Below are positions 17,290-47,922 of a DNA stretch of 64,000 nucleotides, piece after piece. Position 1 is the first letter of the stretch; the number at the start of each line of letters is the position of its first letter. The notes beneath the pieces are model-generated. The model saw nothing but the letters and a program-made list of their open reading frames with translations. It ran no database searches and was not told where the DNA came from. Made by a program: the position numbers and the translations under genes. Origin of the DNA: Ginsengibacter hankyongi (GTDB lineage Bacteria; Bacteroidota; Bacteroidia; Chitinophagales; Chitinophagaceae); the NCBI RefSeq assembly GCF_008710285.1, contig NZ_VYQF01000007.1:1-64000 (forward strand). The letters run 5' to 3'.

Positions 17290-17904
17290 TTATGCAATCG
17301 TTTTTTGCTGGAGTAAGTCTTCATAATCTTTTTTGGTATCTATATCAACTATTCCCTTTGGGAAGGCCACAGTCGCTACAAGGTCTTTATGCTGTTTAAT
17401 CAATTTGCCGGCACCGGCATCGCCTCTTAATTCCATCAATTCATTGAAAAAACTTTTGTGAAATAAAGCAGGCGTACCCAACGTATTATTATAACTACTT
17501 GCCACAATAGGCATCGCTTTTTTTTGCTGTTTGCTTAACAAGCTTTCAAGCAGCGATTTGTTTATATGAGGCTGATCGCATACCATGAAAATAATCCCGT
17601 CAACATCAGCGCTTATTTTCTCCGCAGCAGCTACACCACTGTGCAGTGATAAAGACATTCCCTCCTTCCATCTCTCATTTTCCACTACTTCAACATTCAT
17701 CCCTTCGAGTTCTTTTTTCACTACATACTTATCGTAGCCTGTCACAACAATCACCGGTCGCATAGTTGTTTCTAATGCTACCTCCACTGCGTGCTGCAGC
17801 AAACTTTTGCCCTGGTAATTCAGCAACTGTTTCGGGCTGCCCAAACGGCTACTCCTTCCGGCAGCAAGCACTACAATGGCACAATGTTTAACTGTATATT
17901 GCAT
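17290..17904 (-). CDS. mocA: nucleotidyltransferase, molybdenum-cofactor cytidylyltransferase-like (MocA)
   Basis: A MobA/MocA-type nucleotidyltransferase of about 204 residues. The nucleotide-binding signature LAAGRSSRLGSPKQLL is at the N-terminus, followed by GKSLLQHAVEVAL, the metal-binding VDGIIFMVCDQPH region and RGDAGAGKLIKQH near the end. MocA attaches CMP to molybdopterin to make the cytosine-dinucleotide cofactor (MCD) that enzymes of the xanthine-oxidase family, including CO dehydrogenase, require. The ATG at 17904 lies 5 nt after the stop of the XdhC gene; an upstream TTG at 17913 is less likely. It is the last gene of the cox operon, where a cofactor-finishing enzyme is expected. 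Confidence 0.85.
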   Translation of the reverse strand: MQYTVKHCAIVVLAAGRSSRLGSPKQLLNYQGKSLLQHAVEVALETTMRPVIVVTGYDKYVVKKELEGMNVEVVENERWKEGMSLSLHSGVAAAEKISADVDGIIFMVCDQPHINKSLLESLLSKQQKKAMPIVASSYNNTLGTPALFHKSFFNELMELRGDAGAGKLIKQHKDLVATVAFPKGIVDIDTKKDYEDLLQQKTIA

Positions 17905-17909
17905 GCTGC

Positions 17910-19073
17910 TCAATATAATTTTTTCGTTTCAATGAACGTATCAGTTCTTGAATGAATACCATCCTGCTTGTTGCGTAGTGATCCGCCGTCCTTACCGGCA
18001 AGCACTGCTTTAATTTCTACGATGATACTGAGTGCAATTTCTTCCGCCGTTTCTGCTCCAATTTCCAAACCTGCAGGTCCGTAAATTGTGTTCAGTTGCT
18101 CATCAGTTAAAGCGATTCCATCATCACGCAACTCGTCCAGCATTCTGTTGAGTTTCTTTTTTGGACCAAGCATTCCAATGTACTTCACCTGGCGTAGCAG
18201 CAATGCTTTCAGCATAGCCAGATCGTAATTGTAATTGTGGGTCATCATTACAAATACAGTTTGCTGATCAAAAGGTATTTGATCTAATACTTTTTCCGGT
18301 TTGCTCACCAATACCTGGCATGCACCCACAAACCGTTCCCGTTTTGCATGTGTGCTTCGGCCATCTACCACTCTCACCTCCCAACCAATGGTATCTGCAA
18401 TTTGCATCATAGGGATAGCGTCATTACCTGCTCCTACTACTACCAGCGAAACGGGGGGCTGCAGGAACTCAATGAAAGCGGTAAGCGAAATATTTTTGAC
18501 TACATAATTTTTAAATGAGGATGCCTGCAGTTGCATTGCATGATGAACATTTTCCATAATATAACTATGTAATTCAGGATATGGAATGGCGCCCGAAATG
18601 TTTCCATTCTCTTCCATGAGCAGGCAGGTGCCGGGCTGTTCATTTTTTTTGTCTTCCAAAGAAAACAATGTTACCAGCACTGATTTCTGCCGGAGCGCTA
18701 CTGCCTTGCGCAATAACTGAATAGGATTGTTGTTATTGTTTGGGTTGATGGGTTCAAACAATACCTGGATGACACCTGCACAACCCAACTGTACACCGAT
18801 GGTTGCATCATCTTCATCGCTGGTATCGTAAGTAACCAGTTTCGATTGTTGTTGAGATAAAACCAGCATTGCCTTACGCAAAGCGTCCCCCTCCAAACAG
18901 CCACCGCTGATAGCGCCTGTAAGTTCTCCATCATCCGTCACCAGCATTCGTGCACCAGGCCGGCGATAAGATGAACCGTTCAAATGCACCACGGCTGCCA
19001 GTGCCGATTTTTTTCCGGCAAGTACAGCGGCATCGTATGCTTTTATTATTTCACGAAGTTCTTTCATAACCAT
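17910..19073 (-). CDS. XdhC/CoxI family molybdenum-enzyme maturation protein, 387 aa
   Basis: A two-part XdhC protein. The N-terminal XdhC_CoxI domain shows SALAAVVHLNGSSYRRPGAR and GAISGGCLEGDALRKAM; the C-terminal Rossmann domain starts at about residue 210 with VSLVVVGAGNDAIPM and continues to YIGMLGPKKKLNRML and IYGPAGLEIGAETAEEIALSI. XdhC binds molybdenum cofactor, helps its sulfuration and delivers it to the apoenzyme. Cytoplasmic. It follows another XdhC-type gene (CoxF-like) by 20 bp and overlaps the mocA region closely, so the two act in the same operon, each perhaps at a different maturation step. Confidence 0.88.
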   Translation of the reverse strand: MVMKELREIIKAYDAAVLAGKKSALAAVVHLNGSSYRRPGARMLVTDDGELTGAISGGCLEGDALRKAMLVLSQQQSKLVTYDTSDEDDATIGVQLGCAGVIQVLFEPINPNNNNNPIQLLRKAVALRQKSVLVTLFSLEDKKNEQPGTCLLMEENGNISGAIPYPELHSYIMENVHHAMQLQASSFKNYVVKNISLTAFIEFLQPPVSLVVVGAGNDAIPMMQIADTIGWEVRVVDGRSTHAKRERFVGACQVLVSKPEKVLDQIPFDQQTVFVMMTHNYNYDLAMLKALLLRQVKYIGMLGPKKKLNRMLDELRDDGIALTDEQLNTIYGPAGLEIGAETAEEIALSIIVEIKAVLAGKDGGSLRNKQDGIHSRTDTFIETKKLY

Positions 19074-19093
19074 TAGCCCTTTTAAAGCAAGGT

Positions 19094-20086
19094 TTAATTT
19101 GCAATAGCTTTGTTCATATATTTTTCAGGGTCCTGTTCAAATTTAACTTTGCATCCGTCGCAGCAGAAATAAACTTTTTCGCCATGGTATTCAATAATAT
19201 GTTTAGGATTATTAATATCCACTGGCACACCGCAAACAGGGTTGATGTAATACTTTGGTGATATTCCTGTTTCAGCTTTCGATTCATCAAACTTTTCAAA
19301 TGAAATCATCACAGGCGAACTGTTTTGAACTTGTATCAATTCGGCCAATATACTTATGGCAACCTCATCAGGGCTCTTAGCATTAATATCAATGCCCGCC
19401 GGAGATTTGATAAGATCAATAGCAGTCTTATCAAAACCTGCATCAGCAAGATAATTCGTTATGGAAGCCATTTTCTTTCTGCTGGCAACAAAGCCAACGT
19501 AAGCACTTTCTTTTTTTAATGCTTCCACTAAAGCTTTTTCATCCTGCTCTCCCTGGGTAGCTACTACAATAAAAGTGGCAGGTGTTGTTCTCACATTGGC
19601 CAGGCTGATTTGCGTAACCAGCTCATCTACCTTCTCAAAAGTCTGAAGATTTGCATCCTGCGCTACTGCTGTAATGCGATAGCCTATAGCGCCTGCAAGT
19701 TTTACCAAAGCCTTTGCGATAGACGATTTGCCAATTATCACCAGATGTGGTACCGGCAGTACAGGCTCAACGAAGACCTCAACCGTTCCTTCACTCTGGC
19801 ATGTCATTTTGTATTCCATAACTCCTTCCTGTTTTGATGATACAATCGAATTTCCAATTTTTACAAGCCTGGCTTTGCCCCTCTTCATGGCGTCTTCTGC
19901 TTCTTTAATGATAATGCCTTTCACGCAGCCGCCGCCAACCCAGCCCAAAATTTCCCCGAATTTATTGATTACGGCCTTGTCGCCCACTTTACCGCTGCTG
20001 GGAGCTTCGCGCCTTACAACAATAGCAATAGCAAAGGGCTCGTTCTTTTCTTTCAGTTTGTTTATATTATCAAAAAAATGTATCAT
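19094..20086 (-). CDS. coxF: CoxF-like XdhC family protein fused to a YHS metal-binding domain, 330 aa
   Basis: Residues 1-260 form an XdhC_CoxI plus Rossmann protein (AIAIVVRREAPSSGKVGDKA, GWVGGGCVKGIIIKEAEDA, HLVIIGKSSIAKALVKLAGA, YVGFVASRKKMASI, SPAGIDINAKSPDEVAISIL). Residues about 279-325 form a YHS/TRASH domain with cysteines C285 (INPVCGVPV) and C308, C309, C312 (VYFCCDGCKVKFEQDPEKY). In Oligotropha, CoxF and CoxE are implicated in inserting copper into the Mo-S-Cu site of CO dehydrogenase; YHS domains bind heavy metals. The combination suggests a copper-carrying maturation factor, which is inference. The start overlaps the coxE stop by 4 nt. The symbol is given by position and family; CoxI is an alternative. 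Confidence 0.82.
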   Translation of the reverse strand: MIHFFDNINKLKEKNEPFAIAIVVRREAPSSGKVGDKAVINKFGEILGWVGGGCVKGIIIKEAEDAMKRGKARLVKIGNSIVSSKQEGVMEYKMTCQSEGTVEVFVEPVLPVPHLVIIGKSSIAKALVKLAGAIGYRITAVAQDANLQTFEKVDELVTQISLANVRTTPATFIVVATQGEQDEKALVEALKKESAYVGFVASRKKMASITNYLADAGFDKTAIDLIKSPAGIDINAKSPDEVAISILAELIQVQNSSPVMISFEKFDESKAETGISPKYYINPVCGVPVDINNPKHIIEYHGEKVYFCCDGCKVKFEQDPEKYMNKAIAN

Positions 20087-21222
20087 GCATTTGCCAAAAT
20101 ATTTTCAAGTTCCAATAAACTTTCCAGGTTATGGGCAAAACGGAAATCATCTATCGAGGGAAGCGCTGCCTTCATGCCTCTTGCCTCGGGCGCATAACCC
20201 TTCATTCCTTTTAATGGGTTTAACCAGATTATTCGTTTTGCTCTTCTCTGTAATTTAATCATTTCCTGGCTAAGTAGCTCAGGGTCGCTGGTGTCTAATC
20301 CATCGCTTAAGATGAGAATGACAGGCGATCCGTTCAGTAACAATTTGCCATACTTGTCGTTGAACTCATGCAGGCACTCACCAATGCGTGTTCCACTGCT
20401 CCAGTTATCAGCCTGTTCACTAATAGCAGTTAACACAAAATCGACCCGGTTCTGTTGCAACGCTTTGCTGATCCTGATTAGTGAAGTGCTGAAAACAAAT
20501 GCTTCCATCTGCCGGAAATTTTCACGCAGTGCACAGATAAACCGAAGCAGGAAATAACTGTACCTATCCATGGAGCCACTCACGTCCAGCAATACAATCA
20601 GCCGTTGTTTTTTAGGCCTCTGTGCCCTTCTGAATAATTCAATCGGTTCGCCTCCGTAGCCAACACTTCTCCTGATGGTACGCCGCAGGTTGATCTGTCC
20701 TTTACTGCGGCTCTCCCTCATGCGCCTGCGTAACCGTATTGCCATTTGCTTAAACATCTTTCTTGCAATATCTTCAAGTAATGCTGAATCTGTTTCGTTT
20801 AGCTTCGAAAAATCTGTTCTCTTTAATCGTTCGGTTTCAGTTGCTCCTGAAACATTCTTTCCTTCCTCTTCCGAGGCTTCAGTTTTTCCGCGGCCGAGCA
20901 TCACCAGTGATGCACTGTTCTTTTTTTTAAAAGATCCCTTCACTAAAGTTTTGTTCTTAATTTCCTGCAGGTCTGTTGGATTCGTATCCCAGTAGAGCAG
21001 AAATAATTTCTCATACACTTTTCGTTCTTCCGGCGAATTACAGAAAATTGCTTTCAATGCATACTTAAAACTATCCCTGTTGCTGATCAGTCCTTCTTTT
21101 GCGCAACGAAGTGCATCCTGAGTCTCCTGTATGCCGACATTGAGCCCATGGCTCCTGGCAAATTGCACAAAACCAACTACACTTTCAGCAATGCTCCTTG
21201 TTTGAAATGCCTGTTGTTTCAT
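20083..21222 (-). CDS. coxE: CoxE-like von Willebrand factor A (VWA) protein, 379 aa
   Basis: A cytoplasmic VWA-domain protein of the CoxE family. The metal-ion-dependent adhesion site DVSGS is at residues 213-217 (LIVLLDVSGSMDRYSYFLL), with the matching threonine/aspartate region in SSGTRIGECLHEF and VILILSDGLDTSD. The N-terminal half is a charged helical region with arginine-rich segment RLRRRMRESRSK. In CO-oxidising bacteria CoxE works with the AAA+ ATPase CoxD to convert the inactive Mo enzyme to its sulfur- and copper-bound form. It is preceded by coxD with a 36-bp gap and followed by the coxF-like gene with a 4-bp overlap. Confidence 0.9.
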   Translation of the reverse strand: MKQQAFQTRSIAESVVGFVQFARSHGLNVGIQETQDALRCAKEGLISNRDSFKYALKAIFCNSPEERKVYEKLFLLYWDTNPTDLQEIKNKTLVKGSFKKKNSASLVMLGRGKTEASEEEGKNVSGATETERLKRTDFSKLNETDSALLEDIARKMFKQMAIRLRRRMRESRSKGQINLRRTIRRSVGYGGEPIELFRRAQRPKKQRLIVLLDVSGSMDRYSYFLLRFICALRENFRQMEAFVFSTSLIRISKALQQNRVDFVLTAISEQADNWSSGTRIGECLHEFNDKYGKLLLNGSPVILILSDGLDTSDPELLSQEMIKLQRRAKRIIWLNPLKGMKGYAPEARGMKAALPSIDDFRFAHNLESLLELENILANA

Positions 21223-21258
21223 ATAAAGTTCAATTACTCCTAATCACGATAATTGTGT

Positions 21259-22152
21259 TTAAAGAGTGTCGATAAATTCAGCTTTTGCCTGGTTAATATC
21301 CTCTACCGATTTCAACACACTTCCTAATGTCTGCTCAAACGCTTTGGCATTTACTTCCCGGTAGCCAAGTGCCAGCAGGCTTTCGGCCCAGTCAATGGTT
21401 TCACTTACGCCGGGCGTTTTGGCCAATTTGCGCTGCCTGAAGGCCTGTACATGGGCTACCACCTGCTCCAGTAAATGTTGCTCAATACCCGGTAAGCGTT
21501 TTTTAACTATCGCCATTTCTTTTTCAAGATCAGGGTAATCGATCCAGTGATACAGGCAGCGGCGTTTGAGTGCATCGCTTAACTCACGGGTACGGTTAGA
21601 TGTAAGAATTACAAATGGTTTATATTTTGCTTTGATAGTGCCCAACTCGGGAATACTGATCTGGAATACAGATAATAGTTCCAGCAAAAAAGCTTCAAAT
21701 TCTTCATCACTCCTGTCGAGTTCATCTATCAGCAAAACAGGAGACTGTTCTTCTTCCATGATGCTTTGAAGCAATGGGCGCTTAAGTAAGTACTCATTGC
21801 TGAAGATGTGATGTTCCTTTTCTTCAACAGAAAGATTGGTGCCTTCCTGCAACTTAATACCGAGCAATTGCTTTTGATAATTCCATTCATAAACTGCTGC
21901 GTTTATATCCAATCCTTCGTAGCACTGCAGGCGAATGAGTTTGGTTTCCAACAATTGAGACAGCGCCAATGCAATTTCGGTTTTTCCCACACCAGGTGGT
22001 CCTTCCAGCAGCAATGGCTTTTGAAGTTTTAGCAAGAGGAATAATGCAGTAGCAAATTCTTCATCCGCTACGTATTGATGTTTTTCCAATGCTACTATTA
22101 TCTCCGACGGACTATTGATTGCTTGCACAGGCTTACGATTTTTTACCACCAA
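21259..22152 (-). CDS. coxD: CoxD-like MoxR-family AAA+ ATPase, 297 aa
   Basis: AAA+ ATPase of the MoxR/CoxD group. Walker A is GPPGVGKT at residues 51-58 and Walker B LLIDELD at about 140-146; a sensor/arginine region is in VILTSNRTRELSDALKRRCLYHWIDYP. CoxD is needed to sulfurate the molybdenum of the CO dehydrogenase active site. No ATG is available before Walker A: the frame is open back to a stop at 22165-22167, and the usable starts are TTG at 22152 or GTG at 22149, both overlapping the end of coxG by about 17-20 bp. Translation is therefore probably coupled to coxG. Confidence 0.9.
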   Translation of the reverse strand: MVVKNRKPVQAINSPSEIIVALEKHQYVADEEFATALFLLLKLQKPLLLEGPPGVGKTEIALALSQLLETKLIRLQCYEGLDINAAVYEWNYQKQLLGIKLQEGTNLSVEEKEHHIFSNEYLLKRPLLQSIMEEEQSPVLLIDELDRSDEEFEAFLLELLSVFQISIPELGTIKAKYKPFVILTSNRTRELSDALKRRCLYHWIDYPDLEKEMAIVKKRLPGIEQHLLEQVVAHVQAFRQRKLAKTPGVSETIDWAESLLALGYREVNAKAFEQTLGSVLKSVEDINQAKAEFIDTL

Positions 22153-22663
22153 ATATTCCTTTAATCACACTTCCTACCATAGAGCCGGCACTTAGGGAAC
22201 TGTCCACTTCCTGCCCGGAAAGCTGTGCTTTGAAGTTGCTTACAAACTGGTCGAACACATGGTTGCTTACATCATTGATGAGCCTGCTACCAAACTGCGC
22301 CAGCATTCCTGCGATGCTTACTTCCATAGAAACATTCACGTCTGTACCGTTATCTTTTTGTGTAAGGTTTCCTGTCATCACCATTTCGGCACTACCTTTC
22401 CCTTTACTATCGGTGCCGGTTCCTTTCAATGTCATTTTATGCGCAACCGGATCTCTTTCTGTGAACGTAATAAGCCCGCCATAGCTGGCCTTTACCGGGC
22501 CAAATTTTAATTCCACACCTCCCTTGTAATTATTGTCATCTACTTTTTCAGTCAATGACGCACCGGGCACACAAACCACTACCTTTTCCGGATTGGTGAG
22601 GTTCGCCCACACATCTTCAATGCTGTTCTCAACATGAAATGATTTTGTTATTGTTGTATTCAT
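22133..22663 (-). CDS. coxG: CoxG-like carbon monoxide dehydrogenase subunit G (SRPBCC fold), 176 aa
   Basis: A START/SRPBCC-fold protein of the CoxG family: FHVENSIEDVWANLTNPEKV at the start, CVPGASLTEKVDDNNYKGGVELKFGPV in the middle and an amphipathic helical region (GRLINDVSNHVFDQFVSN-like) before a glycine-rich C-terminus with GGKK. In other CO-oxidising bacteria CoxG recruits the enzyme to the cytoplasmic membrane and helps pass electrons to the respiratory chain. Here it sits between the structural genes and coxD, 158 bp after coxL, rather than after coxF as in Oligotropha. Cytoplasmic, no signal peptide. Confidence 0.88.
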   Translation of the reverse strand: MNTTITKSFHVENSIEDVWANLTNPEKVVVCVPGASLTEKVDDNNYKGGVELKFGPVKASYGGLITFTERDPVAHKMTLKGTGTDSKGKGSAEMVMTGNLTQKDNGTDVNVSMEVSIAGMLAQFGSRLINDVSNHVFDQFVSNFKAQLSGQEVDSSLSAGSMVGSVIKGIFGGKKS

Positions 22664-22779
22664 AATTTATCAATTTGTTCCGCAAAGCGTTTTGATTTAA
22701 TAAACGAGGATAATTGAGTAACACAACGATATTAATTTGTTTACTACCGCTGGTCAGCAAAATAATCTATTAGAAAGAG

Positions 22780-22808
22780 GAGGCCACACTCACGCGGCCT
22801 CACTCTTT
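22780..22808. terminator. hairpin between coxL and coxG
   Basis: GAGGCC (22780-22785) pairs with GGCCTC (22796-22801) around a 10-nt loop; the stem can be extended with flanking GAG/CTC. T-runs lie on both sides, the longer on the plus-strand side (eight T at 22806-22813) and CTCTTTCT on the minus-strand side. For the minus-strand cox transcript it would be a partial terminator or an mRNA-stability element placed right after coxMSL, which would keep accessory genes at a lower level. Confidence 0.45.
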
Positions 22809-22821
22809 TTTTTAAAGTATT

Positions 22822-25194
22822 TTATTTGCCGTATGCTCCTTTTTCCTTCAATGCCTTCCACACTTTGAATGGTGTGATCGGAATATCAAGATGCGTAATT
22901 CCGAATGGCGATAGAGCATCTATTATTGCGTTGGCAATTGCCGGTGGAGAACCAACCGTCGGGGATTCCCCCACACCTTTGGCACCTATTGGGTGGTGTG
23001 GCGAAGGAGTTACCACATGTCCCGTTTCCCATTTAGGTGATTCTACTGCTGTTGGCACCAGGTAATCCATTAAGGTACCGTTAAGGATATTGCCTGCCTC
23101 ATCATAAATCAATTCTTCGTACATGGCAGGAGCAATGCCCTGTGTAAGTCCACCATGCACCTGTCCCTGCACAATCATAGGGTTGATGATATGGCCGCAG
23201 TCATCGATGGCGACAAAGCGGCGAACATGGATGCCACCTGTTTCTTTATCTATATCTACGACACAGATATAAGCACCTGAAGGGAAAGTAAGGTTTGGAG
23301 GATCGTAATAGTGTGTTGCTTCAAAGCCAGCTTCCATTCCCTGGGGGAAATTGGTATAAGCTGCGAACACCAATTCCTGTATGGTCTTTACCTTTTCCGG
23401 TGCACCTTTTACAAAAAATTTACCGGGCTCCCATTCCAGGTCATCTTCGCTGACCTCCAGTAAATAGGCAGCAATTTTTCTCGCTTTATCACGAAGTTTT
23501 CTTGCAGCCACGGCTGCTGCCGCTCCTGCTGTTGGTGTACTCCGGCTTGCATAGGTACCCAAGCCATAGGGAGCCGTATCGGTATCACCCTCTTCCACCT
23601 GGATGTTTTCAGCTGGTATACCTAACTCTTCGGCAATAATCTGGGCATATGTTGTTTCATGACCCTGACCCTGCGATTTTGTTCCAAAACGTGCAATGGC
23701 TTTGCCCGTTGGGTGTACACGGATCTCGGCACTGTCAAACATTTTAATTCCAAGAATATCGAAATCTTTGGAGGGGCCTGCTCCAACTATTTCTGTAAAC
23801 GTTGAAATGCCTATTCCCATTAATTCGCCCTTTGCCCGTTTTTCGACCTGCTCTTTTCGAAGATCGGCATAACCCACTACATCCATTGCCTTTTGCAACC
23901 CGGCATGGTAATCTCCACTATCATAAATCCACCCGGTAGGTGAATGCCACGGGAAGTCTTCCTTTTTAATAAAATTGTCCATGCGCAATTGTGCAGGATC
24001 TTTACCTATCTCCAAAGCATAACGGTCGGTCATGCGCTCAATGGCATGCACTGCTTCAGTAACACGGAATGAACAGCGATAGGCAACACCTCCCGGTGGT
24101 TTGTTGGTATATACTGCATCTGCTTCCACAAAGGCAGTTCCATAATCATAAGAGCCGGTAGCTATGGAGAACAGGCCGGCTGGATATTTGGAAGGGTTGG
24201 CCGCAGCATCTGTGTATCCATGATCTGCTAAAACCTTAAATCTTGTTGCCAGGATTTTCCCCTCCTTTGTGCCAGCCATTTCAGCGGTGATGTGATAATC
24301 GCGGGCAAATGAATCAGCCTGCAGGTTTTCACTCCTGTCTTCAATCCATTTTACAGGTTTGCCCACAAGAAATGAAACAGCAATAGCAATAACATAACCA
24401 GGATAAACTGGTACTTTGCCACCAAAACCGCCACCAATATCCGGAGAAACAACCCTTATTTTTTCCTCTGTTAACCCAACATGGCCGGCCACCAATGCAA
24501 ACACCGTTCGCAGAACGTGAGGCGCCTGTGTTGTCATATACATAGTAAGGTGGTTATTTATCTTGTCATAATCCGCAACACAACCGCATGTTTCGATAGA
24601 AGAAACATGTATACGGGGAATGTGCATCTGTTCCTTAACCACCACAGCCGCCTCAGAAAAAACCTTTTCTGTTTTTGCTTTATCACCCGCTTCCCAATGC
24701 CAGATGTGGTTATCGGTCTTACCGGGCTTATCTGTACGGAGCACGGGTGATGAAGGATCCATTGCTTTAAAAGGATCTACCAGTGCCTGCATAGGTTCGT
24801 ATTCAACTTTTACTGCTTCGCGGCCATCGCGTGCTGCGTACCGGCTGGTTGCTATTACTGCCGCTACTTCCTGGGCCTGGTACATTACTGTATCGGTAGG
24901 CAATACCATTTGTGTGTCTGACATGATAGTAGGCATCCAATGGAGATTGTATTTTTCCAAGTCCTTACCGGTTATTACTGCAACTACGCCCGGCACTTTC
25001 ATTGCCTCCGAGATATCTATGTTTTTTATTTTGGCATAGGCATATGGGCTGCGGGTAATATCCATGTACAGCATTCCATCCAACTTGATATCATCTACAT
25101 AATGGCCTCTACCCTGAATAAACCGGATATCTTCCTTTCTTTTCATGGAATGGCCCATACCGCTGATCGCTTTTGATGTTTTACATTGTATCAT
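22822..25194 (-). CDS. coxL: aerobic carbon monoxide dehydrogenase large (Mo) subunit, form I, 790 aa
   Basis: The catalytic, molybdopterin-binding subunit of CO dehydrogenase (CO + H2O to CO2 + 2 electrons). The active-site loop is AYRCSFR at residues 371-377, with C374 as the expected ligand of the copper in the Mo-S-Cu centre; this loop is the accepted signature of form I CoxL, distinct from AYRGAGR of form II-like enzymes. The conserved glutamate near the molybdenum is E743 in KGVGESPTVGSPPAIANAI. Other family landmarks are IRFIQGRGHYVDDI at the N-terminus, VVSPDIGGGFGGKVP and FGTKSQGQGHETTYAQIIAEE. Length fits the family (about 800). It has no signal peptide and works in the cytoplasm with CoxM and CoxS, whose genes lie directly upstream (33 bp from coxS). 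Confidence 0.95.
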   Translation of the reverse strand: MIQCKTSKAISGMGHSMKRKEDIRFIQGRGHYVDDIKLDGMLYMDITRSPYAYAKIKNIDISEAMKVPGVVAVITGKDLEKYNLHWMPTIMSDTQMVLPTDTVMYQAQEVAAVIATSRYAARDGREAVKVEYEPMQALVDPFKAMDPSSPVLRTDKPGKTDNHIWHWEAGDKAKTEKVFSEAAVVVKEQMHIPRIHVSSIETCGCVADYDKINNHLTMYMTTQAPHVLRTVFALVAGHVGLTEEKIRVVSPDIGGGFGGKVPVYPGYVIAIAVSFLVGKPVKWIEDRSENLQADSFARDYHITAEMAGTKEGKILATRFKVLADHGYTDAAANPSKYPAGLFSIATGSYDYGTAFVEADAVYTNKPPGGVAYRCSFRVTEAVHAIERMTDRYALEIGKDPAQLRMDNFIKKEDFPWHSPTGWIYDSGDYHAGLQKAMDVVGYADLRKEQVEKRAKGELMGIGISTFTEIVGAGPSKDFDILGIKMFDSAEIRVHPTGKAIARFGTKSQGQGHETTYAQIIAEELGIPAENIQVEEGDTDTAPYGLGTYASRSTPTAGAAAAVAARKLRDKARKIAAYLLEVSEDDLEWEPGKFFVKGAPEKVKTIQELVFAAYTNFPQGMEAGFEATHYYDPPNLTFPSGAYICVVDIDKETGGIHVRRFVAIDDCGHIINPMIVQGQVHGGLTQGIAPAMYEELIYDEAGNILNGTLMDYLVPTAVESPKWETGHVVTPSPHHPIGAKGVGESPTVGSPPAIANAIIDALSPFGITHLDIPITPFKVWKALKEKGAYGK

Positions 25195-25227
25195 AATGAT
25201 CTTAATTGAAATTTTGATAAATAAGAT

Positions 25228-25728
25228 TTAAACAAATTGAGGTTCTGTAGAGGCTGGTTCCACGCCACGGTTTTTTGCACTTGCATACTCAATAGCCTTT
25301 ACGATATTATTGTATCCGGTACACCGGCAGAGATTTCCTGAAATACCCCACCGGATTTCTTCTTCCGTTGGATTGGGGTTATTCTCCAGCAATTCTATCG
25401 AACGCATGATCATGCCCGGAGTGCAAAATCCACAATGGAGACCATGGTTATCTTTGAATCCTTCCTGTAATGGATGCAGGTGACCATCTGCTCCGGCAAC
25501 ACTTTCAATAGTCCTGACCGATTTCCCGTTTGCCTGTACAGCGAGGATTGTACAGGATTTTACCGATTTGCCATCTAATAAAATAGTACATGCGCCACAA
25601 GTGGTGGTATCGCAGCCTATATGCGTTCCCGTTAGATTCAGATTTTCGCGTATCAGGTGTACCAGCAGGGTGCGGGGTTCCACATCCAAGGTATGTTGTA
25701 CTTCGTTTACTTTTAAAGTTATTTCCAT
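25228..25728 (-). CDS. coxS: carbon monoxide dehydrogenase small (2Fe-2S) subunit, 166 aa
   Basis: The iron-sulfur subunit. A ferredoxin-type cluster is bound by C39, C44, C47 and C59 ([20 protein letters not shown] then SC), and the second cluster by C99, C102, C134 and C136 ([12 protein letters not shown] and [13 protein letters not shown]). Length equals that of well-studied CoxS (about 166). It moves electrons from the molybdenum site to the FAD of CoxM. Gene order M-S-L is that of form I CO dehydrogenases; form II-like enzymes usually have S-L-M. Spacing is 49 bp to coxM and 33 bp to coxL. Confidence 0.95.
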
Positions 25729-25776
25729 TTTTCCCGATTTTAAAATGTTTAATTGATTAATATTTTAATGGCTGCT

Positions 25777-26646
25777 TTATTTTGATATCCTTTCAACAGC
25801 TTTATGAATCATCCGCTTCACCAGCACAGCTACCATCGCACGTTTGTATTCTTCGCTACCACGCAAATCAGAGGAAGGACTGCAATCTTCAGATGCGTAT
25901 TTGGCCGCTTCGGCAATGGTTTCATCTGTAATGGATTTACCCACCAATGCCTTTTCACTTCGCGATGCACGTAATGGTACAGGATTCACATTGGTAAGGC
26001 CAAAACCTGCTGCAGTGCAAACACCTTTGCTGTCAAGCGTTAGCTGTACAGCTACACCGGCTGTGGCATAGTCACCTACTTTTCTTTCCAGTTTGTGATA
26101 GGCGCTTCCGGTTCCGGCAGGAGGTTCAGGAATTTGAATTTCTGTAAGAATTTCTCCATGCTCTAAAGCGGTCATATAAAACCCATGGAAAAATTCATCG
26201 ATGGCAATGCTTCTTTCCCCATTAGAACCGGTTGCTACAATGGTAGCATTTAAAGCGAGCATTACAGCCGGATGATCGTTGGCTGCATCACCGTGGGCGA
26301 GGTTGCCTCCAACGGTACCCCTGTTGCGAACCTGAGGGTCTGCGATCAATTTTGTAACGTCCGCAAAAATGGGGAAATATTTTTTCAGCAGGTCGGAGTG
26401 CTCAATTTCAGCTTCCCGGGTAAGGGCGCCGATTTTTATTACACCACCTTCTTCTTTAATGTGCGCAAGATTCGGGATGCCATTAATATCAATGAGCCAT
26501 TCAGGATTGGCAAAGCGCAACTTCATCATGGGTATCAGGCTATGGCCACCCGAAAGAACTTTGGCGTCTTCTCCATATTTATCTAACATCGAAATGGCTT
26601 CGGCTAGGGTGCCTGGGGATGCGTACTGAAAGGACTGAGCAATCAT
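25777..26646 (-). CDS. coxM: carbon monoxide dehydrogenase medium (FAD) subunit, 289 aa
   Basis: The flavoprotein subunit. The two FAD-binding motifs are at the family's usual positions: AGGHSL-like SGGHSL at 32-37 and TVGGN at 111-115 (RNRGTVGGNLAHGDAAND). The C-terminal CO_deh_flav_C domain is seen in GSAYHKLERKVGDYATAGVA and FGLTNVNPVPLRASRSEKAL. It passes electrons from the CoxS clusters to the quinone pool. It is the first gene of the M-S-L set; the 122-bp gap upstream would contain the operon promoter unless the 165-aa membrane protein gene at 26769 is also included. Confidence 0.95.
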   Translation of the reverse strand: MIAQSFQYASPGTLAEAISMLDKYGEDAKVLSGGHSLIPMMKLRFANPEWLIDINGIPNLAHIKEEGGVIKIGALTREAEIEHSDLLKKYFPIFADVTKLIADPQVRNRGTVGGNLAHGDAANDHPAVMLALNATIVATGSNGERSIAIDEFFHGFYMTALEHGEILTEIQIPEPPAGTGSAYHKLERKVGDYATAGVAVQLTLDSKGVCTAAGFGLTNVNPVPLRASRSEKALVGKSITDETIAEAAKYASEDCSPSSDLRGSEEYKRAMVAVLVKRMIHKAVERISK

Positions 26647-26768: not shown

Positions 26769-27266
26769 CTAATTCCTGCTTTTGATCATTGGAAATTGAA
26801 CAATTCTATTTCCGGATTTCTTAATGAAAAAATTCCTGAGTTTCCCAATAAAAAAGAGTAAGCTGCCATTCAGCCAAACACCGCAAAAGATAAGTGCCAC
26901 TCCGCTGTAATATAAAGCAAGCCCACCGCCAAGAGCTACGCTGTATAAAAGGCAGGTTGATCCTGTAAAAGCCAGCAGTAATGCATATCTTGTTCGGTTA
27001 TCCCGATAATTGAAAAGCATGCAAACCAGAACAATTCCACAAAAAAGCGCTGAAAGTATTAAGGTGGTTAAAGAAGAATGAGTATGTGTGTCCATGAAAG
27101 TTCCGGCCTGGTCACAAAGAACGAACGTGCTTGAAAAGGCCATGAAACAAAGAGGGCACTTAGGTAACAGTGCGAGAAGGATCCCCGCAAAAAAACTATA
27201 TTTCTTCTTATTACCCGGGGGATATGGTTTATTAAACTTTGCGCAATGTTTTTTCTCAAATAACAT
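26769..27266 (-). CDS. four-helix membrane protein with CPLC motif, upstream of coxM, 165 aa
   Basis: A small integral membrane protein with four hydrophobic segments (about residues 25-48, 68-88, 95-113 and 117-140) and a basic C-terminus. Cysteines cluster at the membrane face in LLPKCPLCFMAF, followed by another in FVLC, a pattern seen in small heavy-metal-related membrane proteins such as the MerC/MerT group, but I cannot assign a family. It shares the orientation of the cox operon and ends 122 bp before coxM. Metal (copper) handling for CO dehydrogenase would fit, but this is inference only; a stand-alone unknown membrane protein is equally possible. Confidence 0.6.
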   Translation of the reverse strand: MLFEKKHCAKFNKPYPPGNKKKYSFFAGILLALLPKCPLCFMAFSSTFVLCDQAGTFMDTHTHSSLTTLILSALFCGIVLVCMLFNYRDNRTRYALLLAFTGSTCLLYSVALGGGLALYYSGVALIFCGVWLNGSLLFFIGKLRNFFIKKSGNRIVQFPMIKSRN

Positions 27267-44568: not shown

Positions 44569-47500
44569 ATGCAACCGGATAACTTTTATCAAAGATTGAA
44601 AATTATCATGTCAGTTTTTGCTTTGATATTTTTTTCGCAAAATATAACGGCTCAGAAAGTAGTTCCCTTCTTTGGAAAAATAAACTGGATCAGCGGTTAC
44701 GCCAAAGAAATCAGTGGTGAAAATATTAGCTATTTTTCTGCCTTCCCTGATTATGCAACTACGGCTTTATTAACACGGACCACGGACGGAAAAAAGGTTA
44801 TTGAATGGGAGACTGCACCTGTTCCAAAAAATGCTAAAGGCAAATACGTATATTTTAGTTGGGTGGCAGGACACTCTTCAGGCACCAGCGGCGGCAACCG
44901 CAATTTTGATTTGTATGTTAATGATAAAAAGGTTTTGACATTTACTACATTTCCCAATCATCAAAAGCCCAATTGGGAATTTGTTGCACCGGATAGTTCT
45001 GCATTGGTATTTGAACAAACAAAAAGGGACGGCGCAAACGATGCCCATGGGTTTAATTATTTAAGGCTTCCTCTAAGTAGCGTCAAACCTGGTTTCCCTG
45101 TTACAATAAAAGTAATTGGTGAGGCACAAAACAGTAACGACTGGTATATGGCCTTCAAATTTTCATTTGAAGAAAAGGCCGACATACATCCTATGCCATT
45201 CCTGTTAAAAAACGGTAAGCAGCCTATTGCATTAACTGCTTTACATTTTGAAAAAAATGAAACGCTGCGGGTTAAGGTTAATCATAAAGAAGTATATTCA
45301 TTTATCGAAAAAGATGGAATCAATAATTTTGATATTCCGGTAAATGCTGTTGCACATGAAGACAGTGTGTTTGTTAATATTTCTGTTGGCAAAAAAACAC
45401 TGGTTGACCAATTTGTGTACCTGAAACCGGTTGTTTACAGGGAACTGGATTTCATTCATAATTCACATACCGATATAGGCTACTCGAATGTTCAGCCTGA
45501 AATAGTAAAGATCCATAACAAGAATATTGATGATGCATTGCGCATGATAGATAAAACAAAAGACTATCCTGTGGAAGCAAAATTTAAGTGGAATGTCGAA
45601 TCTCTTTGGGCTGTTGAAAATTATTTACAACAGGCATCACCTGCTCAAAAAGAAAAATTTATTAAGGCTGTAAAAGAAGGGAGCATTGGCTTGTCTGGGT
45701 TATATGCGAATATTCTAACGGGTATGAGTGAGCCTGAAGAAACGTTTCATTACACTGACTATGCTGACAAACTGAGAAAAGAATTTGGTTTTACGATCAA
45801 CAGTGCGATGATCTCTGATGTTCCAGGTTATGCTTGGACAACAGTGACTGCTCTTGCCAAAGGAGGCGTAAAATATTTTTCAAGCGGACCTAATTTCCTT
45901 GGAGAGAGCCATCCCTATTTGGGAGACCGGGTTGGATACTTTTTAAAAGCATGGGGGGATAAACCCGTATGGTGGACTTCTCCGTCAGGCGATGAAAAAA
46001 TTCTATTCTGGACTGCAGGAAAAGGATATTCATCATGGCATGGAACCGGCCCGGGGGGCGTATTTGACAGGGGTCCTAAGAAAATAGCTACCTACTTGGA
46101 TGAATTGGCTGCGGAAAAATATCCTTACGATATAGTGCAGTGGAGGTATAATATTGTTTCTGATAATGGGCCAATTGATACCACCATTTCAGATTTTGTA
46201 AAGCAATGGAATGAAAAATATGCCTCGCCAAAAATCATCTTAAACACAACACAAGAACTTTTTGAAAAATTCGAAAAAAAATATGGGAGCAGCATTCCTG
46301 TGGTAAAAGGCGATATAACGCCCTATTGGGAAGATGGCGCTCTTTCTACCGCTTATGAAGAAGATAAAAACAGGATAAACAGTTTGCGGCTGCAACAGCT
46401 CGCAACATTATATGCGATGCTTAAGCCAAAGGAATATAAAAAGGATAAATTTTATGAAGCGTGGAGAAATATCATAATGTTCCATGAACATACCTGGGGT
46501 GCCTATAACAGCACTTCGGAGCCGGACCTTCCATTTGTTGCCGAACAATGGCGTATAAAAAAACAATTTATGTTGGATGCTGATAAAGAGATTGACACTT
46601 TAGAAAAAAAATTGTTTCAGCCGATAAGTAATATTCAATCAAGAAAAATTGCGGTATTCAATACATCTTCATGGAGCCGTACCGGGCCTGTAATAATTCC
46701 GGCAGACGTTACAGGGAAGTCTGTAAAAAATGCTTCAGGCGAAAAAATGCCGTTACAAAAATTAAGTGATGGTACTTCTGTTTTTATTGCGGGTAACGTG
46801 CCACCGTTAGGGACTTCCGTTTTTGAAATTACCGATGAAGAAGTTCCTGCGGCGGATGAAAATTTCATAGTTACAGACAGTTCTTTATCTAACGGTCACG
46901 TATGGTTGCGTTGGGATAAGACTAACGGGAGCATAACAACTTTAGAAGATAGAACCAATTTCAATTTTGCGGGAAGTTTTGATAACCAGGGATTGAACAG
47001 CTACTGGTATGTGCCGGGTTACAATCCTGCCGATGCTGAAACGAATGGGAAAGTGCAGGTAAAAGTTTTAGAAAGCGGGCCGATGCTTACAACTATCGCT
47101 ATCACTTCTGATGCGCCCGGCGCTAATAAATTGGAAAGAAGAATATCCTTATATGCAGAAAGCAATGAAGCAGAAATTGAAAATATTATAGACAAGAAAG
47201 CTATCAGAAAAAAAGAAGCCGTTCATTTTGGATTTCCTTTTAATTCATCACTTATTAACACAACGGTAGACGCAGGTTATGGTACTATGAAATACCTGGC
47301 AGATCAGTTACCGGGATCGAACATGGACTTTTTATATGGCAGAAGATGGTTAGACGCTTCAAAGGCCCACAAAGGTTTGCAATTAATAGTACTCGAAACA
47401 CCTTTATTGGAACCTGATAGTATGATTGATGAAAGGTTATTGGTAAATCAAAGTCTTAAGAAGTGGAAAAAAGACGGCAAGCCAACATCAACATGGTTTA

Positions 47501-47922
47501 GTTATGCCATGAACAATTACTGGTATACCAATTATAAAGCTGACCAGGGAGGGGTTGCTCATTTCAGGTATGCGTTAAGACCTCATGGGATGATCAATTC
47601 TTCAGAGATGGAAAGGTATGCTGAAGCATTTACACAACCATTAATAGCGATTCCGGTTAACAATGAAGAAGCACTTCCTTCGGAATTATTTGCATTAACA
47701 AGTAATCGTATTGTCGTTAGCAGCATCACTCCTTGTGATGATGGCAATTACCTGGTGAGGATTTATAACCCCGAAGCTGCGGCAGAAAAAACAGGATTTA
47801 TATGGAAAGATATTAAACCGTTAGACCTTATGAATGTTGATACCGGATTACAAATTCCCATTAATGAAAATATTACCGTAGAAGGTATGGGTGTGGCGGA
47901 TATAGAATTTAAAATGCACTAG
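44569..47922 (+). CDS. GH38 alpha-mannosidase, exported, 1117 aa
   Basis: The N-terminal 29 residues form a signal peptide ending in NITAQ. An N-terminal beta-rich domain of about 280 residues precedes the GH38 catalytic domain, which begins with FIHNSHTDIGYSNVQPEIV; its zinc ligands are the His and Asp near residues 301-303 and the nucleophile is probably the Asp of ISDVPGYAW near 416. Zinc-binding GH38 helical and C-terminal beta domains follow (FHEHTWGAYN; WLRWDKTNGSITTLEDRTN; HFGFPFNSS). GH38 enzymes remove alpha-linked mannose. It is the first glycoside hydrolase of the locus. Confidence 0.88.
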   Translation: MQPDNFYQRLKIIMSVFALIFFSQNITAQKVVPFFGKINWISGYAKEISGENISYFSAFPDYATTALLTRTTDGKKVIEWETAPVPKNAKGKYVYFSWVAGHSSGTSGGNRNFDLYVNDKKVLTFTTFPNHQKPNWEFVAPDSSALVFEQTKRDGANDAHGFNYLRLPLSSVKPGFPVTIKVIGEAQNSNDWYMAFKFSFEEKADIHPMPFLLKNGKQPIALTALHFEKNETLRVKVNHKEVYSFIEKDGINNFDIPVNAVAHEDSVFVNISVGKKTLVDQFVYLKPVVYRELDFIHNSHTDIGYSNVQPEIVKIHNKNIDDALRMIDKTKDYPVEAKFKWNVESLWAVENYLQQASPAQKEKFIKAVKEGSIGLSGLYANILTGMSEPEETFHYTDYADKLRKEFGFTINSAMISDVPGYAWTTVTALAKGGVKYFSSGPNFLGESHPYLGDRVGYFLKAWGDKPVWWTSPSGDEKILFWTAGKGYSSWHGTGPGGVFDRGPKKIATYLDELAAEKYPYDIVQWRYNIVSDNGPIDTTISDFVKQWNEKYASPKIILNTTQELFEKFEKKYGSSIPVVKGDITPYWEDGALSTAYEEDKNRINSLRLQQLATLYAMLKPKEYKKDKFYEAWRNIIMFHEHTWGAYNSTSEPDLPFVAEQWRIKKQFMLDADKEIDTLEKKLFQPISNIQSRKIAVFNTSSWSRTGPVIIPADVTGKSVKNASGEKMPLQKLSDGTSVFIAGNVPPLGTSVFEITDEEVPAADENFIVTDSSLSNGHVWLRWDKTNGSITTLEDRTNFNFAGSFDNQGLNSYWYVPGYNPADAETNGKVQVKVLESGPMLTTIAITSDAPGANKLERRISLYAESNEAEIENIIDKKAIRKKEAVHFGFPFNSSLINTTVDAGYGTMKYLADQLPGSNMDFLYGRRWLDASKAHKGLQLIVLETPLLEPDSMIDERLLVNQSLKKWKKDGKPTSTWFSYAMNNYWYTNYKADQGGVAHFRYALRPHGMINSSEMERYAEAFTQPLIAIPVNNEEALPSELFALTSNRIVVSSITPCDDGNYLVRIYNPEAAAEKTGFIWKDIKPLDLMNVDTGLQIPINENITVEGMGVADIEFKMH

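Follow-up and report, generated by a model that had tools for sequence, protein, structure and literature searches.

Form I carbon monoxide dehydrogenase (CODH) needs Cu(I) in its Mo-S-Cu site, a site that is unique, and the way in which copper enters this buried position is unsettled. A 64,000-nucleotide stretch of the Ginsengibacter hankyongi genome, referred to below as the window, raises this question anew with a cox operon whose maturation factor CoxF ends in an additional YHS domain. We ask which enzyme the operon encodes, how regularly such a tail accompanies it, and whether the tail may serve copper delivery. According to our analysis, the window very probably holds a complete form I aerobic Mo-Cu CODH with its maturation set, working by the general mechanism of such enzymes, and the enzyme itself is an ordinary, known kind of form I CODH. 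The form I-linked metal-binding tail on CoxF appears to be new, no published description of a CoxF/XdhC-YHS or CoxF-HMA (heavy-metal-associated) fusion having been found in the literature searched, and a conserved CPxC membrane gene at Bacteroidota-type cox loci is likewise new. Loci and genomes are cited by label (L and G numbers) where they need to be told apart.

Identity of the enzyme and layout of the operon

The catalytic subunit CoxL scores 1219.8 bits against TIGR02416, more than 200 bits above the curated cut-off of 991.15, and is 59% identical (464 of 786 aligned residues) to CoxL of Afipia carboxidovorans. The loop AYRCSFR occupies residues 371-377, where an earlier note on this DNA had read it, and Gln223, Cys374 and Glu743 align with Gln240, Cys388 and Glu763 of OM5 CoxL; we take Cys374 to be the copper-binding cysteine and Gln223 and Glu743 to have active-site roles as well. 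The nearest solved chains are the CO dehydrogenases 8uem, 1ffu and 1n5w. In a tree of 65 CoxL rows (a quick search under LG+G4 with no bootstrap, and with several long branches among the non-form-I rows), the 47 AYxCSFR rows split from the 18 non-form-I rows with a Shimodaira-Hasegawa-like approximate likelihood ratio (SH-aLRT) of 100. The form I side includes A. carboxidovorans (L144) and the window, which groups with Flavihumibacter, Niastella and other Bacteroidota. Score, motif and tree, the last being the check that the earlier note had asked for, bear out its claim of a true form I enzyme and not a generic xanthine-oxidase relative.

Judged from these sequence comparisons, the operon almost certainly encodes a form I CO-oxidising enzyme. 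It is scarcely credible that it belongs to form II or to another molybdenum hydroxylase with a different substrate, an identity we rejected on the TIGR02416 score and the tree placement: coxD/E/G and XdhC-family helpers also adjoin form II-like CoxL, but form II-like Bacteroidota CoxL reach only 638.1 to 780.6 bits against the same model, far from a protein that carries AYRCSFR and falls in the form I clade.

The nine open reading frames (ORFs) at 17290-26646, identified from the ORF list and Pfam, lie on the minus strand in the order coxM, coxS, coxL, coxG, coxD, coxE, coxF, coxI, mocA, with gaps of 158 to -20 bases between neighbours and all reading frames intact. This layout, coxM-S-L together with helper genes, is that of a form I locus, and order and coordinates agree with the earlier note, which had overlooked the YHS tail of CoxF and the upstream ORF at 26769-27266. 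Once this ORF for a 165-residue membrane protein is counted, the locus extends to 27266. Its features are listed below (all on the minus strand; lengths in amino acids, aa).

26769..27266, minus: membrane protein with PKCPxC, 165 aa, distantly MerC-like; homologs at Bacteroidota-type cox loci
27147..27164, minus: PKCPLC motif, residues 35-40 of the 165-aa membrane protein; Cys37 and Cys40 in 54/54 aligned members
25777..26646, minus: coxM, medium subunit binding flavin adenine dinucleotide (FAD), 289 aa; PF00941 174.3 bits, PF03450 93.9 bits
25228..25728, minus: coxS, 2Fe-2S small subunit, 166 aa; PF01799 and PF00111
22822..25194, minus: coxL, form I Mo-Cu catalytic subunit, 790 aa; TIGR02416 1219.8 bits, form I clade
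24064..24084, minus: AYRCSFR active-site loop, CoxL 371-377; aligned with OM5 385-391
22664..22821, minus: coxL-coxG spacer with a strong hairpin; z -4.82, 0/200 shuffles as stable
22133..22663, minus: coxG, 176 aa; PF06240 COXG 80.3 bits
21259..22152, minus: coxD, MoxR-type AAA+ ATPase, 297 aa; AAA_5 44.1 bits, resembles the MoxR ATPase gene of the OM5 cluster
20083..21222, minus: coxE, VWA protein, 379 aa; PF05762 VWA_CoxE 193.8 bits
19094..20086, minus: coxF, XdhC-type maturation factor with C-terminal YHS, 330 aa; XdhC_C 100.8, XdhC_CoxI 59.2, YHS 51.9 bits
19109..19246, minus: YHS domain, CoxF residues 281-326; 51.9 bits against a gathering score of 30.3
17910..19073, minus: coxI/xdhC, second XdhC-family molybdenum cofactor (Moco) factor, 387 aa; XdhC_C 124.2, XdhC_CoxI 91.2 bits
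17290..17913, minus: mocA-like molybdenum cofactor cytidylyltransferase, 207 aa; PF12804 134.9 bits, TIGR03310 146.6 bits, under its cut-off of 186.45

Across the operon, Pfam finds MoCo, 2Fe-2S, FAD, CoxG, AAA, VWA_CoxE, XdhC and MobA-like domains. The statement that all ligands are in place stood for the CoxL residues, for the eight cysteines of CoxS, in register with OM5 CoxS, and for the SGGHS and TVGGN motifs of CoxM, which presumably have their usual functional roles. CoxS and CoxM as whole proteins fall below NCBIfam cut-offs, their best models being glyceraldehyde dehydrogenase subunits, as do CoxD (best model MadB) and MocA, so that these four names rest on Pfam domains and gene order. 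CoxG is thought to take CO dehydrogenase to the membrane (excerpts of PMC4240915). The hairpin between coxL and coxG may be an attenuator or an mRNA-stability element that sets the ratio of enzyme to helper mRNA. By eye, the corresponding spacers of L036, L040 and L046 also contain inverted repeats; L035, L039 and L041 have short spacers. Promoter-like sites were no commoner than in shuffled sequence (16 against a mean of 21.0).

Among the closest known systems, the cluster on pHCG3 of Afipia (Oligotropha) carboxidovorans (L144) shares coxMSL, coxD, coxE, coxF and coxG with the window, as well as the active-site residues of CoxL. It differs in its order, coxM-S-L-D-E-F-G with additional MHYT-protein genes, whereas coxG precedes coxD in the window, and in a CoxF of 280 aa that lacks the tail, where the window has a YHS domain and the upstream CPxC gene. 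Flavihumibacter stibioxidans (L035) and Niastella vici (L041) have the order of the window from the CPxC gene through coxI and share CoxF-YHS with it; mocA is present in L035 and was not detected in L041, and the difference noted is sequence divergence, with CoxL 89-91% identical. Thermomicrobium roseum (L143), reported to oxidise atmospheric CO (excerpts of PMC6794299), also combines form I with CoxF-YHS, encoded directly after coxL, but neither coxD nor coxE was detected in the fetched 22 kb.

The YHS tail of CoxF and its link to form I

CoxF of the window consists of an XdhC_CoxI and an XdhC_C domain followed by the YHS domain. Its two XdhC domains, its position beside coxD/coxE and its place in the CoxF clade identify it as CoxF; in the CoxF tree, the CoxF rows stand apart from eight CoxI rows, which form one clade at 99. 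CoxI of the window has no tail domain, with Pfam giving XdhC_C and XdhC_CoxI and nothing else. The YHS match lies well over its gathering score and retains the conserved cysteines: Cys285 is found in 85, Cys308 in 83 and Cys312 in 87 of 98 CoxF rows, 11-12 rows being gapped there. In an adenylyl cyclase of Mycobacterium phlei, a YHS domain responds to Cu2+ and its probable ligands are one Asp and three Cys (excerpts of PMC4626032); by analogy to this domain Cys285, Cys308 and Cys312, perhaps with Asn282, are the likely metal ligands of the tail. In the AlphaFold2 model of CoxF (mean predicted local distance difference test, pLDDT, 89.5), the tail domain stands behind a loose linker, with values of about 85-92 at residues 281-320, 71 in the last ten residues and about 60 in the linker at 261-280. 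Foldseek matches the core to the XdhC-type structures 3on5 and 2we7/2we8 (E-values near 1e-17, TM-scores 0.40-0.52).

In order to see how widespread the tail is, we compared 147 form I loci; grouping their CoxL at 97% identity gave 114 clusters. CoxF could be assessed, uncut by a contig end, in 98 clusters, and in none of the other 16. A YHS tail is present in 84 of the 98, in 83 by pattern and in L179 by reading, and L145 carries a decayed YHS that scored 29.1 bits in one scan and 33.1 in another (gathering score 30.3). In two clusters (L159-L162 and L163) an HMA domain replaces YHS, with 45.3 and 40.7 bits against a gathering score of 24.8. Pfam at E<=0.01 gave the same picture, with YHS in 83 and HMA in two of the 98 scanned CoxF proteins; these were taken from 104 dereplicated pieces, leaving out two L048 fragments, L098, the second piece of L112, L222 and L240.

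The tail follows form I closely. In 151 genomes drawn around L106 (Chloroflexota), the CoxF-YHS profile extends into the tail in all 28 genomes with form I and in one of 123 without form I, counts that hold among the matches listed, where weak fragments could be missed. The lone exception, G658, carries the fusion at the very start of a 4.8-kb contig and has no form I CoxL over the cut-off. Of the 28 form I genomes, 24 were examined as new stretches (L179-L202), all 24 with the CoxL motif, in addition to L106. The fusions of G690 and G692 were each counted from two adjacent pieces and that of G708 from a contig other than that of its CoxL; a match in G713 with three internal stops was dropped, its locus having tail-less XdhC genes on reading. 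Among plasmid records, 220 match the CoxF of the window and six of them cover at least 80% of it, all six belonging to the 19 form I records and none to the 201 others; the form I records are set apart by CoxL identities of 56-69%, the next best being 41.7%, and 15 of them were examined as stretches. None of 32 non-form-I loci has a CoxF-type XdhC, and nine have a CoxI-type XdhC with no metal-binding tail.

On the CoxF tree, the HMA rows form one clade (98), as do seven alphaproteobacterial rows (97). L159-L163 were assigned to the same phylum as the window (family codes f14 and f40). Two independent HMA swaps were considered and rejected: L159 and L163 are separated on the CoxL tree, but the cores of their CoxF proteins group in a single clade (98). 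L101 and the second XdhC of L105 and L112 were likewise rejected as tail-less CoxF, as they fall on the CoxI side. An MHYT protein is encoded within the stretch in all nine alphaproteobacterial form I loci fetched, each with a tail-less CoxF, and elsewhere gave a single weak match of 33 bits (L148, annotated as LytTR). We set aside the idea that it is the alphaproteobacterial counterpart of the tail, since it may be a regulator and phylogeny confounds the comparison.

Two further features of CoxF were observed. Residues 94-100 form an MxCxSxG motif (Met94 in 80, Cys96 in 98, Ser98 in 91 and Gly100 in 98 of 98 rows), which appears to match M107CPSHGTM, put forward as a copper motif in CoxF of A. 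carboxidovorans (excerpts of PMC4240915); CoxI of the window has GCAG at the seemingly equivalent site, and the cysteine may be general to XdhC proteins. The form I CoxF at L235:12795-13712, which has neither YHS nor HMA, ends in a short Ser-rich tail with CCRDSD at its end.

A proposed route for copper

HMA domains, which take the place of YHS in L159-L163, are classic copper-chaperone domains and mostly carriers. In A. carboxidovorans, coxE and coxF mutants produce CODH without Cu, and the authors propose CoxF as the supplier, drawing also on sequence motifs in CoxF (excerpts of PMC4240915). In the sequence of events that we propose, the knowledge of the enzyme family and the residues checked imply that MocA loads cytidine monophosphate onto molybdopterin and that CoxM, CoxS and CoxL assemble into the FAD / 2Fe-2S / Mo-Cu enzyme. 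The maturation steps are more tentative: CoxD would sulfurate the site, in line with what was put forward for A. carboxidovorans. CoxF with its YHS tail would then, together with CoxE, bring Cu(I) to the sulfurated molybdenum, while the CPxC membrane protein beside coxM might import copper or hand it over. As in the family at large, the reaction CO + H2O -> CO2 + 2e- + 2H+ would proceed at the Mo-S-Cu site held by Cys374, with electrons passing from 2Fe-2S to FAD and on to quinone, aided by CoxG, and to an assumed terminal oxidase.

From the occurrence and the residues of the tail, we lean towards the view that it works in copper handling for CODH. More tentatively, and with slightly less than even confidence, we posit that form I operons generally encode their own copper route, consisting of the YHS or HMA tail of CoxF, fed in Bacteroidota by the CPxC protein. 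The tail would then mark the copper-dependent form I off from form II, with A. carboxidovorans as an exception that lost the tail or never had it.

Several observations weigh against this view. The biochemically studied A. carboxidovorans has a tail-less CoxF, so Mo-Cu CODH as a class does not depend on the tail, and the coxF mutant of this species also lost CoxE, CoxE and CoxF being interdependent in their accumulation (excerpts of PMC4240915), which means that the copper loss is not pinned on CoxF alone. Neither tail is found in 11 of the 98 clusters (eight alphaproteobacterial ones, Nonomuraea L146, the L098/L099/L101 cluster and L235), and the tail is also missing from 13 of the 19 plasmid records with form I. 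Some YHS tails are weak, such as that of L106 with 21.1 bits, below the gathering score of 30.3. The Asp ligand conserved in YHS is Asn282 in the window; this column holds 49 N and 35 D among the 98 rows, and the Asp is not part of the Pfam threshold. YHS-like domains may hold other metals, and the weak PDB match of the tail is a phenol hydroxylase (E-value 0.011). In the CoxF tree, the tailed rows gather at 94, at a node that is not starred, which looks like one main gain, and the tail state changes three times on the CoxF tree and seven times on the CoxL tree. The association of tail and form I is tight but comes from few evolutionary events, one of them the swap of the metal domain, and Fisher p-values take no account of this shared descent.

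Taken together, such points could mean that the YHS tail is a passenger, fused once in an early form I operon and since then spread by inheritance and by transfer of the operon, its role being structural (zinc-type) or not specific to copper insertion. The few changes of state with the HMA rows in one clade, the phenol hydroxylase match and the growth of A. carboxidovorans on CO with a tail-less CoxF (excerpts of PMC4240915) all suit this explanation. We nevertheless consider it unlikely, as the three tail cysteines are kept despite the divergence of CoxF, another metal-binding domain occupies the same place in L159-L163, and no XdhC protein of the 32 non-form-I loci showed such a tail, the fusion occurring in one of the 123 genomes without form I. 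It is less probable still that CoxF-YHS senses copper, and so gates maturation or the accumulation of CoxE, instead of carrying it. The YHS domain with a described metal response does act as a probable copper sensor (excerpts of PMC4626032), and the mutual dependence of CoxE and CoxF would fit; however, the HMA domain that replaces it is known mostly as a carrier, and no regulatory partner was noticed within the operon.

The second component of the proposed copper route, the CPxC protein, is encoded 122 bases upstream of coxM on the same strand. Its family was surveyed at the fetched cox and non-form-I loci and in plasmid records, and comprises 64 matches in 63 loci, the window and four duplicate stretches included; 46 of the 64 lie on the coxM strand within 600 bp upstream. 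A homolog is present at 57 of 69 Bacteroidota-type cox loci, and in six of the 12 loci without one (L045, L047, L072, L088, L097, L104) the sequence ahead of coxM is short or missing, or coxM itself was not found. The family was not found in the fetched Chloroflexota, Gemmatimonadota-type, Acidobacteriota, plasmid and non-form-I loci, and a plasmid search with the protein gave no match. A ThiS-like and a sortilin/BNR-like ORF separate the CPxC gene from cox in L055 and L066, and in L107 the gene stands beside moeA and moaA on the opposite strand. Pfam gives no match for the protein at 0.001; among the weak matches of its family, MerC comes up most often (21 of 54 members, best E-value 2e-5). 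Like MerC (PF03203), it is a small multi-helix membrane protein with a Cys pair, and unlike MerC it is linked to cox genes.

A role of this protein as copper carrier is possible but rather doubtful, a guess from the motif, the operon linkage and the distant likeness to MerC; a role in molybdenum cofactor assembly is a possible alternative. Counting against a copper role, the CPxC gene is missing from L054, L067, L073, L077, L083 and L096, each with an upstream stretch of over 7 kb, and also from L159-L163 of the same phylum. The window protein matches MerC with an E-value of 0.018 and 16 bits against a gathering score of 27.6, and is for this reason filed as MerC-like and not as MerC. Its structure model (pLDDT 77.2, moderate) found no PDB fold match at 0.001.

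A possible source of sulfur for the Mo-S-Cu site was also noticed. By eye, the SAR324/delta-titled cox loci L105:15469-17223, L112:15468-17222 and L101:15462-17146 contain ORFs resembling a SufS-type cysteine desulfurase and an IscU/SufU scaffold between an XdhC gene and a coxD. An aminotransferase class V ORF lies near cox in L107. At L098:7063-9021, XdhC and a desulfurase-like sequence are joined in one ORF; this stretch includes a run of unread bases, and the joining may be an assembly artefact.

Distribution of form I and CO use in Bacteroidota

The earlier note had called form I uncommon in this phylum. As a frequency this stood: form I CoxL above the TIGR02416 cut-off occurs in five of 195 family genomes and eight of 392 phylum genomes, the window's own included in each, and two genomes of the same genus gave no CoxL match in the search. 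As a novelty it did not, and we rejected a strong claim of form I being new to Bacteroidota. Cordero et al. (2019) list Bacteroidota among the phyla with form I coxL (excerpts of PMC6794299), two 2026 surveys likewise name them as carriers (excerpts of PMC13203968 and PMC13240472), and many Bacteroidota records appeared in our scan, where most of the best 80 CoxL relatives were titled as Bacteroidota groups, including Flavihumibacter, Niastella, Robiginitalea, Robertkochia and many Saprospiraceae records. The presence of form I in Bacteroidota is thus patchy, already in print and not new.

Draws centred on other loci gave form I in 28 of 151 genomes (L106, titled Chloroflexi), 15 of 81 (L110, titled Longimicrobiales) and three of 119 (L111, titled Thermoanaerobaculum). 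A draw around G730 was Bacteroidota again, with form I in seven of 326 genomes, six of these seven at the coordinates of matches from the 392-genome draw; Pseudomonadota and Actinomycetota were sampled through plasmid records only. Fifteen phage records match CoxL, all below 60% identity. A contig titled uncultured Thalassobius (L091) holds a Bacteroidota-type cox locus, and its title looks wrong, since the phylum draw around the L091 genome gave the same Bacteroidota-phylum matches as the 392-genome draw.

The genome of G. hankyongi (5.5 Mb, 33 contigs, 100% complete) contains moaA, moeA, moaC, mobA-like and moeB-like genes in a row on contig C9, and no match to RuBisCO. Both fit CO as an energy supplement, and from its gene content the organism should be a heterotroph that takes energy, not carbon, from CO. 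Across the window from the cox genes, a long block of genes sharing one strand includes glycoside hydrolases (GH38-like at 44569-47922; GH3 with PA14 and Fn3-like domains at 58630-61311), which suggest polysaccharide use. It is very improbable that the operon is degenerate or silent here, a recent import out of use. Its patchy occurrence in the family and genus would be in keeping with import, as would the GC content of the cox genes (0.444, and 0.414 at third codon positions, GC3, against 0.397 and 0.360 in 20 other window genes), but the nine frames are intact, the checked active-site residues are kept, Moco genes are present and CoxL is nearest to Chitinophagaceae homologs.

Form I CO dehydrogenase removes atmospheric CO (excerpts of PMC6794299), and for Bacteroidota the genetic capacity for CO use is confirmed here, on top of a phylum-level record already in print. 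The CPxC gene offers a small new target for the question of copper insertion, and the tail may, next to AYXCSFR, give genome surveys a further marker of CO oxidisers. With a candidate domain located on CoxF, the entry of copper into the Mo-S-Cu site becomes directly testable by mutation.

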